From assembly GCF_001422405.1 (NCBI RefSeq), contig NZ_LMMV01000026.1, positions 4,166 to 68,165 on the forward strand: DNA of 64,000 bases, read 5' to 3'. Under the pieces are notes generated by a model, which saw nothing but the letters and a program-made list of their open reading frames with translations, searched no databases and had not been told where the DNA came from. Origin of the DNA: Pseudorhodoferax sp. Leaf267. Lineage in GTDB: Bacteria > Pseudomonadota > Gammaproteobacteria > Burkholderiales > Burkholderiaceae_C. A program made the position numbers and the translations under genes. The stretch's first letter is position 1. Each line of letters begins with the position of its first letter. Positions 35,363-38,231 of the stretch are shown here, in pieces.

Positions 35363-35830
35363 TCAGGCGGGCTGCGCAGATTGCCAGGTGGCAATCAGTT
35401 GGTGGAGCTCTGCAGCGTCGGCCGTGCTCTTCATCTTCTCGCGCAAGGGCGCATCGCTGAGCAGTTCGGCAATCTCGGACAGGATTTCCAGATGCTTCTG
35501 CGTCGCCGCTTCGGGTACCAGGAGGAAGATCAAAAGCTTGACGGGTTGCTCGTCCGGCGCATCGAAGCCGATGGGCTGCAGCAGTTGCACCACGGCTGCC
35601 ATGGGCGACTTCAAACCCTTGATGCGGCCATGCGGAATCGCAACGCCATGACCCAGTCCCGTCGAGCCCAGGCGTTCGCGGGCGAACAGGCTGTCGGTCA
35701 CCAGCGCGCGCGACAGGCCGTGCAGGTTCTCGAACAGCAAGCCGGCTTCCTCGAAAGCACGTTTCTTGCTCGTGGCATCGACGCTCACGAGGACCTGAGC
35801 AGCAGGCAGGATGGACGCGAGGCGGTTCAT
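35363..35830 (-). CDS. ptsN: PTS IIA-like nitrogen-regulatory protein PtsN (EIIA-Ntr)
   Basis: A 155-residue EIIA of the fructose/nitrogen type. The phosphorylated histidine is His67 in GLGHGVAIPHGR, and VQLLQPIGFDAPDEQPVKLL also fits. The protein relays phosphate from PEP via EI-Ntr and NPr and regulates K+ transport and other processes; the window's kup and trk systems are possible targets, by analogy with E. coli TrkA. It is separated from hpf by a strong terminator. rpoN, a frequent neighbour, is absent. Confidence 0.95.
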   Translation of the reverse strand: MNRLASILPAAQVLVSVDATSKKRAFEEAGLLFENLHGLSRALVTDSLFARERLGSTGLGHGVAIPHGRIKGLKSPMAAVVQLLQPIGFDAPDEQPVKLLIFLLVPEAATQKHLEILSEIAELLSDAPLREKMKSTADAAELHQLIATWQSAQPA

Positions 35831-35875
35831 AGGGAAGGCGGATTATGCACGTCGGCACATTGCACCGCAGCAAAC

Positions 35876-35907
35876 AAAAAGCCGCCTAGGCAGGCGGCCG
35901 GTTTTTT
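35876..35907 (-). terminator. Intrinsic terminator after hpf
   Basis: GCCGCCT (35881-35887) pairs with AGGCGGC (35892-35898) around AGGC. Reading leftward the stem is followed by TTTTTGTTTG; reading rightward by TTTTTTG after three bases. It should stop hpf transcripts before ptsN. Confidence 0.9.
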
Positions 35908-35948
35908 GTCGGACGCACGCGACACGCCGTCGCGTTCGCGCACAGACC

Positions 35949-36278
35949 TTACATCAGGCGCTTGGGCGCCTCGTGGTGATGGTTCTGGATGCGGTCCTTG
36001 TGGCGGACCACCTGGCGGTCCAGCTTGTCGACCAGCTCGTCGACGGCCGCGTACAGATCAGCGTGTGCACTCTCCGCAAACATGTCGTTGCCCTTGACGT
36101 GGATGTTGCACTCAGCGCGTTGGCGGTTCTGCTTTTCCTTCTGCTTTTCCACTGTCAGCAGGACCTTGACATCGACCACCTGATCGAAATGCCGCGTGAT
36201 GCGATCCAGCTTGTTGATGACATAACTCCGCAGTGCTGGTGTTACTTCCAGGTGGTGACCGCTGATCGTCAAATTCAT
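35949..36278 (-). CDS. hpf: Ribosome hibernation-promoting factor (HPF/YfiA family)
   Basis: A 109-residue short-form hibernation factor: [20 protein letters not shown], then [20 protein letters not shown] and [20 protein letters not shown]. It binds the 30S subunit and helps form inactive ribosomes in stationary phase. GAAGGAGGCTCC gives an excellent ribosome site for the Met at 36278; the longer frame to 36365 is not needed. A good sigma-70 promoter lies 40 bp upstream, and a strong terminator follows. Confidence 0.95.
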
Positions 36279-36317
36279 GGAGCCTCCTTCTTGCAGTTTC
36301 ACGTTGATGGCCGATTC

Positions 36318-36346
36318 ACTATGCGCGCGATGCCCCTGAATTGCAA
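36318..36346 (-). promoter_or_regulatory. Sigma-70 promoter of hpf
   Basis: Reading leftward, TTGCAA (36346-36341) and CATAGT (36323-36318) are spaced by 17 bp. The -10 ends 39 bp before the hpf ATG. Confidence 0.7.
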
Positions 36347-36415
36347 GCTGGCGGCGCAAGCCCACAGCCCAGGGCGACCAACGGTCGTGGCAGGCGTCGG
36401 GGCGGGGCGCGGTGC

Positions 36416-36421
36416 CATAAT
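36416..36421 (+). promoter_or_regulatory. Extended -10 of corA
   Basis: TGCCATAAT (36413-36421) has the TGn extension and a CATAAT hexamer. Transcription from about 36428 would give a leader of about 126 nt before corA, containing the small ORF and hairpins described next. Confidence 0.6.
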
Positions 36422-36451
36422 TTGCGGCTTTTCGTCACCGAGAAACCCCCC

Positions 36452-36475
36452 ATGGATCCCTACCCTAGTCGGTAG
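36452..36475 (+). CDS. Seven-codon leader ORF (MDPYPSR) upstream of corA
   Basis: An ATG at 36452 opens a frame encoding MDPYPSR and stopping at TAG 36473-36475, about 24 nt into the predicted corA transcript. It has an acidic second residue and prolines at positions 3 and 5, like the start of MgtL, the Pro-rich Mg2+-sensing leader peptide of enterobacterial mgtA. Its ribosome site is weak (GAGAAA). CTACC (36460-36464) and GGTAG (36471-36475) form a small stem spanning its end. The role is inferred from position and composition. Confidence 0.5.
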   Translation: MDPYPSR

Positions 36476-36550
36476 CTTTCGACGCCCTGTGCCGGGGTCG
36501 AAAGCGCCCCACCCGCTTCGCCTCCAGACCTAGAACACCACACAGGGGTC
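36475..36550 (+). promoter_or_regulatory. Alternative RNA structures in the corA leader
   Basis: GCTTTCGAC (36475-36483) pairs perfectly with GTCGAAAGC (36497-36505), extended by CCC (36485-36487) with GGG (36494-36496). The same left segment, GAC plus CCCTGTG (36481-36491), can instead pair with CACAGGG and GTC (36541-36550), covering the corA ribosome site AGGGG (36544-36548). The two structures exclude each other. The first stem begins on the last base of the leader ORF stop, so a terminating ribosome would disturb it. Confidence 0.6.
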
Positions 36551-36553
36551 CTC

Positions 36554-37540
36554 ATGTTGAATATCTTTTCCCTGGCCAACGGACGCTTGGTCCAGGAAGA
36601 AATCGAGTCGCTCGAGGAGCTGTCGCAGTTCCAGCCGATCTGGGTCGACCTGGAGTCGCCCACGCTCGAAGAGAAGCGCTGGATCAAGCAGTACTACGGC
36701 CTGTCCATTCCCGAAGACGCGATGGACGAGGACATCGAGGAGTCGGCGCGCTTTTACGAAGAGGACAACGGCGAGCTGCACATCCGCAGCGACTTTTTGA
36801 TCGCCGACGAGGACGACCCGCGTTCGGTGCGCGTGGCCTTCATCCTGAACCAGCACAACACCGAGCTCAAGAGCCGCGGCGTGCTGTTCTCCATCCACGA
36901 CGAGGACGTACCCGTGTTCCGCCTGCTGCGCATGCGCGCGCGCCGGGCGCCGGGCTTGCTCGAAGACGCCAAGGAAGTGCTGCTCAAGCTGTTCGACGCC
37001 GACGCCGAGTACTCGGCCGACACGCTCGAAGGCATCTACGTCGAACTGGAGAAGGTCAGCACCCAGGTACTGGCTGGCGACGTGACCGACAACCTGGCCG
37101 GCGAAGTGCTGGGCGCGATCGCGCGGCATGAGGACTTGAACGGCCGCATCCGCCGCAACGTGATGGACACGCGCCGCGCGGTCAGCTTCATGATGCGCAG
37201 CCGCATGCTCAACGCCGAGCAGTTCGAGGAGGCGCGGCAGATCCTGCGCGACATCGAATCGCTGGACAACCACACGGCCTTCCTGTTCGACAAAATCAAC
37301 TTCCTGATGGACGCCACGGTCGGCTTCATCAACATCAACCAGAACAAGATCATCAAGATCTTCTCGGTGGCCAGCGTCGCGCTGCTGCCGCCGACCTTGA
37401 TCGCCAGCATCTACGGCATGAACTTCAAGTTCATGCCCGAGCTGGACTGGCAGCTGGGCTACCCCTATGCCATCGGCCTGATGCTGGCCAGCGCACTCGT
37501 GCCCATGTGGTACTTCCGCAAGCGCGGCTGGCTCAAGTAG
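36554..37540 (+). CDS. corA: Magnesium transporter CorA
   Basis: A 328-residue CorA-family channel for Mg2+ (also Co2+, Ni2+). A large acidic cytoplasmic N-terminal domain is followed by two C-terminal membrane helices with the signature YGMNF (287-291) between them, and ends KRGWLK. It is complete and of usual length. The start has AGGGG at short spacing, which the leader RNA can sequester. It overlaps the convergent mtnN by 8 bp. Confidence 0.96.
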   Translation: MLNIFSLANGRLVQEEIESLEELSQFQPIWVDLESPTLEEKRWIKQYYGLSIPEDAMDEDIEESARFYEEDNGELHIRSDFLIADEDDPRSVRVAFILNQHNTELKSRGVLFSIHDEDVPVFRLLRMRARRAPGLLEDAKEVLLKLFDADAEYSADTLEGIYVELEKVSTQVLAGDVTDNLAGEVLGAIARHEDLNGRIRRNVMDTRRAVSFMMRSRMLNAEQFEEARQILRDIESLDNHTAFLFDKINFLMDATVGFININQNKIIKIFSVASVALLPPTLIASIYGMNFKFMPELDWQLGYPYAIGLMLASALVPMWYFRKRGWLK

Positions 37541-38231
37541 CGCGCAGCAGCGCCTCGACGATGGCCGCCGAGTGCGGGCTGGCCACGGTGCGCACGAACT
37601 GCAGGAAGTCGCCATGCGCGGCGTCGTCGGCGCGGTCGGAGATGGTGCGCACGGCTGCGAACGGCACGCCGAAATCGTGGCAGACCTGCGCGAAGGCCGC
37701 GCCCTCCATCTCCACGGCCATCGCATCGGGCAAGGCGACCTGCAGCGCGCGCGACTCGGCAGCGCTGCTGACGAAGCGGTCGCCGCTGACCACCAGGCCC
37801 TCATGCACGGCGGCCTGCGGCAAGGCCTGGCGCGCCGCACGCACGAGTGCCGCACGCAGGTCGGCATCGGCCGCAAAACGGCTCTGGCCATACAGCGGCA
37901 CCTCGTGGAGCGGGAACAGCGGCGATGCGTCCATGTCGTGCTGCAGGAACGCGCTGGCGACCACGACATCGCCCACGCGCACCTGCGGCCCCAGCCCGCC
38001 GGCAACGCCCGTGAACACGATACGGTCCACCGCGAAGCGCTCGACCAGCAGCGTCGCCGTCGTGGCGGCCGCTACCTTGCCGATGCGGGCCAGCACGGCC
38101 ACAACGTCCTGGCCATGCAGATGGCCGGTCCAGAACGCGCGCCCGCCAACCATGGTGCGCTGCTCGTCGGCCATCAGGGCCAGCACGGCGGCCAGCTCTT
38201 CCTGCATCGCACCGACGATGGCGGTGCGCAT
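37533..38231 (-). CDS. mtnN: 5'-methylthioadenosine/S-adenosylhomocysteine nucleosidase
   Basis: A 232-residue purine-nucleoside hydrolase that removes adenine from MTA and SAH, recycling SAM by-products. Recognised segments are MRTAIVGAMQEELAAVLALM, VFTGVAGGL, DVVVASAFLQHDMDASPL, the catalytic-glutamate region VEMEGAAFAQVC and VRTISDRADD, whose Asp is the second active-site residue. Its ATG overlaps the fadD-like stop by one base (TGATG). It is convergent with corA. Confidence 0.95.
   Translation of the reverse strand: MRTAIVGAMQEELAAVLALMADEQRTMVGGRAFWTGHLHGQDVVAVLARIGKVAAATTATLLVERFAVDRIVFTGVAGGLGPQVRVGDVVVASAFLQHDMDASPLFPLHEVPLYGQSRFAADADLRAALVRAARQALPQAAVHEGLVVSGDRFVSSAAESRALQVALPDAMAVEMEGAAFAQVCHDFGVPFAAVRTISDRADDAAHGDFLQFVRTVASPHSAAIVEALLRAT

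Follow-up and report, generated by a model that had tools for sequence, protein, structure and literature searches.

The corA gene of Pseudorhodoferax sp. Leaf267 is preceded by what, on comparison with its relatives, is a real and conserved candidate for a leader-peptide switch. A seven-codon ORF runs directly into an RNA hairpin (2:3), and part of the left arm and loop of this hairpin (2') can pair instead with the corA ribosome site (4). We infer that the corA leader is a cis-acting leader-peptide attenuator of corA translation, with Mg2+ as the presumed signal and the direction likewise presumed, and we assign this reading a probability of roughly 0.57. According to excerpts of two published papers, CorA has traditionally counted as the constitutive Mg2+ importer (PMC11552253, PMC6335274). 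Should the reading be correct, a leader conserved in about two-thirds of the sampled family genomes would imply that translational tuning of corA is not confined to enteric bacteria. Short uORFs in front of Mg2+ transporter genes would then have arisen repeatedly or have a greater age than supposed. Because the leader exists in two natural versions, with many sequences and natural cases of loss, its sensing codons and its switch point are open to direct testing.

The corA leader of Pseudorhodoferax sp. Leaf267

The whole stretch of DNA analyzed, here called the window, is 64,000 nt long. The parts of the corA locus within it are as follows.

35949 to 36278, minus strand: gene for an HPF/YfiA family ribosome hibernation-promoting factor, divergent from corA (TIGR00741, 103.7 bits; context only)
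36413 to 36421, plus strand: extended -10 promoter element TGCCATAAT, read from the sequence (TG at 36413-36414, CATAAT at 36416-36421)
36440 to 36445, plus strand: probable ribosome site of the leader ORF, GAGAAA (mostly GGAG in relatives)
36452 to 36475, plus strand: leader ORF MDPYPSR-stop, ATGGATCCCTACCCTAGTCGGTAG, with codon-level conservation in relatives
36460 to 36464, plus strand: region 1, CTACC inside the leader ORF, whose pairing with GGTAG at 36471-36475 (1:2) is weakly supported
36475 to 36487, plus strand: region 2, left arm of the hairpin (GCTTTCGAC, a bulged G, then CCC), supported by covariation
36481 to 36491, plus strand: region 2', the left-arm and loop part GACgCCCTGTG, alternative partner of the corA ribosome site by co-evolution
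36494 to 36505, plus strand: region 3, right arm of the hairpin, GGGGTCGAAAGC, supported by the fold and, as for region 2, by covariation
36506 to 36540, plus strand: linker from the hairpin to the corA ribosome site, C-rich and G-poor (51% C, 14% G)
36541 to 36550, plus strand: region 4, corA ribosome site CACAGGGGTC, partner of region 2'
36554 to 37540, plus strand: corA, 328 aa (TIGR00383, 235.1 bits against a cut-off of 200.75; PF01544, 184.5 bits)

Transcription of the corA leader is predicted from the promoter sequence to start near 36428, and the leader is about 126 nt long. Its ribosome site reads GAG, weaker than the GGAG of relatives, and the hairpin begins at the last base of the leader stop codon TAG (36475). 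The 2':4 pairing of the window comprises 10 pairs, GAC at 36481-36483 with GTC at 36548-36550 and CCCTGTG at 36485-36491 with CACAGGG at 36541-36547, with G36484 bulged. An earlier note on this DNA had proposed the -10 element, the ORF MDPYPSR, the hairpin and the second pairing near corA, and direct reading of the sequence confirms their coordinates. It had also set the leader apart from the M-box riboswitch. An Rfam scan of 35500-38000 agrees: three matches fell below gathering scores (E up to 5) and none lay on the corA leader, which eliminates M-box identity.

Two versions of the leader across the family

To sample corA loci, we scanned named genomes with the CorA protein and kept 80 loci, among them representatives of Variovorax, Acidovorax, Polaromonas, Rhodoferax, Comamonas, Limnohabitans and Diaphorobacter. 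The leader ORF lies upstream of corA in 70 of the 80, one of which (L036) carries an insert before corA and was left out of all tests. Sorted by eye, the last ten comprise four variants (L039, L059, L063, L085), two degenerate leaders (L018, L050), two loci where the leader ORF is absent (L028, L082) and two contigs that end too early (L070, L088).

A covariance model built from 37 leaders of the window's type (version I, mostly MExxPS[R/W]-stop; model R1) has matches in 167 of the 399 genomes sampled from the window's family, covering 69 of 141 genera. Where R1 is silent, the corA upstream regions of family members contain a second version, MDxxHPR-stop. This version II is mostly TTG GAC xxx xxx CAC CCT CGG TGA, and its hairpin, which starts within the stop codon, differs in sequence from that of version I (ACCGTCCRCTCC / GGGGTGAGACGGT). 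The corresponding model, R2, matches 100 of 399 family genomes and 40 of 141 genera. Model searches over 40 genomes used stricter filters, and these match counts are lower bounds. The genome sets of R1 and R2 do not overlap, so that 267 of 399 genomes have one version or the other if the two draws of 399 are taken as identical, as their handles agree. The small ORF is thus conserved among relatives; the earlier note had named a lack of such conservation as counting against its reading. The note's leader ORF and alternative pairings stand, and the element is wider than the note had proposed, with a second peptide version in the same family.

The matches tested for context lie beside the same gene with both models. 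corA lies on the same strand at all 37 R1 loci and all 30 R2 loci tested for context, and its start falls within the best alignment at 37/37 and 29/30, respectively. Four genomes have a second R1 match, which is the same hairpin read on the opposite strand. Order-wide, R1 matches 10 of a sample of 399 genomes, nine of them in the family; the tenth, a weak partial match outside it (L128), is not beside corA. R2 matches none of 250 genomes in an order-wide sample that had no positive control.

None of five congeners of the window genome is matched by R1. By eye, their corA leaders (L130-L134) keep the -10 and the GGAG without the short ORF or the hairpin; a GTG start and CCACAGGG before corA are also retained in L130-L134 and in L018. 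Judging from these sequences, the hairpin and the short ORF appear to have been lost in the window's congeners L130-L134 and L018. The leader frame of L131 seems to extend to a stop overlapping the corA start, and congener G001 looks just like the Pseudorhodoferax locus L018.

The version II loci are L137-L139, L141, L142, L144, L159, L167, L180-L184, L187, L188, L202, L203 and L205-L220, where L159 and L220 are one place counted as two loci. The right arm of the version II hairpin, GGAGTGAG, resembles the version I corA ribosome site, GGGAGTGAGCC. Seventeen loci were left unparsed: L100 and L140, whose readable leaders the pattern missed; L189, a longer variant; L143, an ambiguous case; the congeners L130-L134; L135 and L136, with no leader by eye; and L190, L191, L193, L196, L197 and L200, from other families.

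Simpler searches were less productive. Searching by DNA similarity alone recovered 9 of 40 genomes, the window's own included, and gave way to the protein and RNA-model searches. A leader pattern search at 3 mismatches was rejected as returning mostly chance matches, with backwards-pattern control counts of the same size. corA was present at 9 of the 30 loci that pattern searching returned and at 18 of 19 further chosen matches with 0-2 mismatches; in one batch of 13 fetched regions, 6 had no corA match in a local search.

The leader ORF is conserved at the codon level

Codon usage in aligned leaders shows that the leader ORF is under coding selection, as far as comparative data can. We tabulated codons at fixed positions, unfiltered, in 37 version I leaders taken from the RNA model (the 30 best family matches and 7 order-wide), a model that was itself built from parsed leaders. 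Codon 1 is TTG in 22, GTG in 11 and ATG in 4, and codon 2 is GAA in 35, with GAG and GAC once each, so that residue 2 is acidic in all 37. The third base of the Pro codon at position 5 is free (CCC 19, CCT 14, CCG 4). Codon 6 is AGT in 35, TCT in 1 and ACG in 1; codon 7 is CGG in 19 and TGG in 18; and codon 8 is TAG in 36. In the corresponding version II table, 1 of 30 rows is out of frame at the fixed positions. Version II leaders likewise exchange synonymous codons, for Arg (CGG/AGG/CGA), Pro (CCT/CCA/CCG) and His (CAC/CAT).

The larger parsed set gives a codon table that is partly built in, as the parsing patterns required NTG (not CTG), CCN and listed codons. Residue 2 is acidic in 47 of the 49 distinct parsed leaders of version I and in all 21 of version II; here the pattern demanded GAN at codon 2 strictly for version II and almost strictly for version I. 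Among the 49 version I leaders, codon 5 is CCC or CCT in 28 and CCG in 21, codon 7 is CGG in 27, and at codon 6, 34 leaders have AGT and 11 have TCT, with Ser retained. The TCT codon accompanies Variovorax-like leaders with CAG at codon 8, and the AGT-to-TCT switch may be a single event. In these Variovorax-like leaders the reading frame stays open as far as a TGA within the loop of the hairpin (METAPSRQLSTPF and similar).

The same replacement of TAG by CAG, with the ORF running through the left arm to a later stop, is seen in L010, L011, L014-L016, L019, L020, L022, L024-L026, L029, L030, L033, L041, L043, L048, L080, L083 and L087. These run-on leaders mostly gain CTT and CCC codons.

The hairpin covaries and its loop varies in length

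The window hairpin has a predicted energy of -18.8 kcal/mol, a value as low in only 2 of 1,000 dinucleotide shuffles; the whole 173-nt window leader is not unusually stable against shuffles (z -0.61). In an alignment of 37 version I leaders, 97.3% of the cells in the outer 9 pairs are paired and 15 cells have changed on both sides, and the 2:3 covariation score exceeds that of all 500 shuffles. Three pairs show a two-sided change, a count reached in 120 of 500 shuffles. One column pair, 46:94, has gone from A-U to G-C in 8 of the 37 leaders. Version II behaves similarly, with 94.3% of cells paired, 9 two-sided changed cells and a score above 497 of 500 shuffles; its count of pairs with a two-sided change was reached in 85 of 500.

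Across 69 leaders the hairpin spans 31-74 nt, which indicates that arm pairing is kept and the loop is free. L084 was omitted from this count and from alignment A1, its right arm being misplaced. Given the variable span among species, we rejected a DNA operator as an explanation of the hairpin. By eye, an intrinsic terminator was rejected for the lack of a T-tract after the hairpin, and an amino-acid attenuator for the lack of both a codon run and a T-tract.

In version I, the corA ribosome site co-evolves with the left arm and loop of the hairpin

The two pairings 2:3 and 2':4 are mutually exclusive, and both are supported by sequence comparison in version I. We scored 2':4 as the best stem without interruptions that the 30 nt following codon 8 can form with the 22 nt preceding corA, and set true pairs against cross-species pairs in 56 version I representatives of less than 75% identity. 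An earlier 2:4 energy comparison, with the right arm included, had given a small difference (matched mean -14.8, unmatched -13.5), and the regions were redefined and the permutation test chosen after it. The matched stem score is 17.38 against 14.59 for permuted partners (z 8.3; 0 of 20,000 permutations). Against swaps with the nearest relative, the matched pair wins 34 times and loses 15 (p 0.0005), and among the 32 leaders sharing a GGGAG core the signal persists (p 0.0003). Three of four version I control region pairs give no significant excess; the fourth (-60 to -39) gives a smaller one (z 2.9, p 0.0016), possibly due to the right arm lying inside this stretch.

Ranked among all partners, a leader's own partner takes first place in 9 of the 56, reaches the top five in 24 and falls into the lower half in 6; in the window it ranks third. 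The stem is built from different sequences in different lineages: CCCTGTG/CACAGGG in the window, GCTCCCGGTT/AACCGGGAGT in Comamonas testosteroni, GTTCCCTCTT/AAGAGGGAGT in L084, CTCTCCCAG/TTGGGAGAG in Comamonas aquatica and GACTGATG/CGTCAGTC in Polaromonas. L035 and L037 pair through an GGGGTCAGA-like sequence, which we take to be a common repeat, and the excess holds without these two (z 7.3).

For 26 version II representatives, 2':4 exceeds permutations (p 0.004 by stem score, 0.0007 by energy), with no excess over nearest-relative swaps (p 0.41) and with one control at p 0.019. A clean single compensatory pair is seen between CTCCAGCCGG/CCGGTTGGAG and CTCCAGCCGA/TCGGTTGGAG. Comparative evidence thus establishes the leader ORF, hairpin 2:3 and, for version I, 2':4. 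Of the compensatory changes in the arms whose absence the earlier note had named as counting against it, those of 2:3 are found in both versions and those of 2':4 in version I, while version II 2':4 beats permutations only; the note's two mutually exclusive pairings are borne out by the covariation of 2:3 and the version I co-evolution of 2':4.

Two further pairings are of less weight. The 1:2 helix (9 pairs) is paired in 87.4% of the cells of alignment A1 and shows zero covariation in either version. The 1:2 helix is pairable in most leaders, and covariation lends no support to it as an OFF-state lock. In the minimum-energy fold of the window, the ORF segment GGATCCCT at 36454-36461 forms 8 bp with AGGGGTCC at 36544-36551, with the hairpin nested inside, so that region 4 also pairs partly with the leader ORF. 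From this pairing, corA expression in the window is predicted to require some translation of the leader; ORF pairing with the pre-start region is not seen as a class in relatives.

Some lineages without a clear corA ribosome site, e.g., Limnohabitans, still have the hairpin. The corA start regions of L035, L037, L056, L057 and L060 have no evident ribosome site, and several of these still pair with the hairpin loop (15 bp in L037). A 4-mer resembling a ribosome site before corA is absent in 8 of the 56 version I representatives.

Predicted effect of ribosome position on pairing

The dependence of pairing on ribosome position is computed only. We folded 55 version I representatives with the ribosome footprint forced unpaired and its edge at +12, +15 or +17. 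With the edge at +15 and the P site at codons 1-3, 2:3 has on average about 9-10 pairs and 2:4 about 2-3; at codons 4-6, 2:3 falls below 2 pairs and 2:4 rises above 6; at codon 7, both are low. More 2:4 pairs at codons 4-6 than at codons 1-3 are predicted in 48 of the 55 leaders with the edge at +15, in 46 at +12 and in 43 at +17. In the window, 2:4 is predicted to have 0.3, 0.0 and 0.8 pairs at codons 1-3 and 9.6, 10.1 and 5.5 at codons 4-6, an almost complete flip.

Folding with a ribosome on the leader thus predicts a switch near codons 3-5. Pro codon 5 of version I lies near this border, and the Pro of version II is one codon later. Setting the edge at +12 or +17 moves the flip by about one codon, and because the switch point moves with the footprint edge, its direction is not secure. 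With no ribosome the state is mixed (version I averages of 4.2 pairs for 2:4 and 6.4 for 2:3), and with the stop codon in the A site 2:4 has 5.9, 2.5 or 1.5 pairs, depending on the footprint. The predicted accessibility of the corA site changes little with ribosome position (0.18-0.27 for version I leaders with 7 codons), which counts against a switch.

A model for the leader and its alternatives

Control of translation rather than transcription, the direction of control and Mg2+ as the signal are what we infer from these features. The transcript would begin near 36428. A ribosome held at the first leader codons would leave the 2:3 hairpin free to form, burying the anti-ribosome-site strand 2' and leaving corA translatable. 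At about codons 4-6, the ribosome would instead cover the base of the hairpin and leave 2' exposed, and 2' would then pair with the corA ribosome site and shut corA. Poor leader translation would raise CorA and smooth translation would lower it. Poor translation at low Mg2+ might be expected because residue 2 is acidic and the ORF contains the Pro codon: Mg2+ shortage would hold the ribosome before the Pro codon, so that 2:3 forms and corA is open, and passage of the ribosome would close corA. This hold-or-pass logic fits the logic published for mgtQ (PMC8092293) and corL (PMC11552253), as far as excerpts of these sources give it.

A more ambitious version, which we offer tentatively and consider doubtful as a whole, is that the leader constitutes a Mg2+ feedback valve on corA, evolved independently and shared across the family, with the seven-codon leader as the whole sensor. 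The nearly fixed Pro codon, which is followed by CGG in many leaders, would sit where the front edge of the ribosome meets the hairpin, and passing or failing this codon would flip the corA ribosome site. MExxPSR and MDxxHPR would be sister versions that kept the logic and exchanged the peptide, the stop codon, the hairpin sequence and the ribosome-site partner.

The promoter and leader ribosome site are widely retained. Of the parsed leaders, 103 of 106 in version I and all 33 in version II have an [A/C/G]ATAAT hexamer upstream, mostly 31-37 nt before the leader start, and GGAG lies 10-14 nt before the start in 94 of the 106 version I leaders. In the stretch -60 to -23, C outnumbers G in 100 of the 106 version I leaders and in 29 of 32 of version II, compared with 64 of 106 and 12 of 32 in upstream control DNA. 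The linker at 36506-36540 is a possible Rho loading stretch, and the same leader and pairings could have Rho-dependent termination near the C-rich linker as their output, with leader translation deciding Rho loading. Rho is reported to act in corL/corA (excerpts of PMC11552253). With 35 nt in the window the linker is short, however, and what co-evolves with the left arm and loop is the corA start region, which a mechanism of termination only does not need. We regard a Rho output as unlikely.

The same attenuator could also respond to a signal other than Mg2+: the general state of translation, tRNA charging or modification, or the efficiency of termination at the stop codon. A single acidic codon and a single Pro codon are typical of the leader, which is less than the EPDP start of MgtL offers, and the divergent neighbor of corA encodes a ribosome hibernation factor. 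The matches tested for context precede corA, however, and CorA belongs to a family of Mg2+ transporters, so that we find a different signal no easier to credit than a Rho output, and improbable.

Direct sensing of Mg2+ or another metal by the RNA fold, with the ORF secondary, has a precedent in the gammaproteobacterial corA motif, proposed as a divalent-metal riboswitch candidate (excerpts of PMC6429828). Here, the conserved structure is a single hairpin of 31-74 nt with no evident conserved loop core in A1, the ORF is conserved at the codon level and the leader has no Rfam match, all of which make this very improbable. That the element does not regulate at all, being a constitutive stabilizing hairpin with a fortuitous mini-ORF, is hardly credible given the coding signature, the covariation and the model matches in 267 of 399 genomes, despite the five congeners without a detectable copy.

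Comparison with known Mg2+ transporter leaders

Returning to the leader as an attenuator of corA translation, we judge it nearest to mgtQ/mgtB of Salmonella in mechanism and to corL/corA in target. Excerpts of PMC8092293 describe mgtQ, in the Salmonella mgtC-mgtB intergenic region, as an ORF of 8 aa that acts on translation. Like the present leader, it has an acidic position 2 and a single conserved Pro, and it overlaps alternative stems, one of which sequesters the ribosome site of a gene for a Mg2+ transporter. The mgtQ ORF must be translated, and acidic codons that impede its translation raise mgtB translation (PMC8092293). The two differ in that the ribosome site is hidden in mgtQ by strand 3, which otherwise pairs with strand 2, and here by the left arm and loop of 2:3; in that mgtQ controls mgtB, a P-type ATPase, inside an operon rather than corA; and in that the 1:2 stem is important in mgtQ and without covariation here (PMC8092293).

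As excerpted from PMC11552253, the corL leader of Salmonella and E. coli likewise combines a short ORF before corA with two exclusive RNA conformations; translation of this uORF is inversely related to corA expression, and Mg2+-dependent corA expression is reported for E. coli. The corL leader is longer, with termination near position 211-220, and Rho dependent, whereas the leader here is about 126 nt long and pairs with the corA ribosome site (PMC11552253). The mgtL leader peptide before mgtA also has acidic and Pro residues at its start but is longer, with more Pro codons and, in Salmonella, a Rho output (excerpts of PMC11282234, PMC6335274). In the mgtA leader, decoding of Pro CC[C/U], Leu CU[C/U] and Arg CGG depends on TrmD, a tRNA methylase that requires Mg2+ (excerpts of PMC6335274), and by analogy we suggest that the CCC/CCT and CGG codons of the present leader could be TrmD-dependent codons. 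The gammaproteobacterial corA motif RNA is also conserved upstream of corA, but in excerpts of PMC6429828 it is reported from Gammaproteobacteria only, as a riboswitch candidate.

MgtL acts through Rho-dependent termination, and the layout here, with pairing to the ribosome site, is nearer that of mgtQ. The corL leader before corA is reportedly also the subject of a 2015 paper by Kriner and Groisman. In erm-type translational attenuators, translation of a leader peptide decides whether a downstream ribosome site is hidden; the present leader would resemble them in this respect, and the erm-type systems are drug induced. Among top-ranked titles and abstracts of the open-access literature, we found no description of a Comamonadaceae or betaproteobacterial corA leader peptide. 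The region upstream of both corA and hpf might link Mg2+ with ribosome hibernation.
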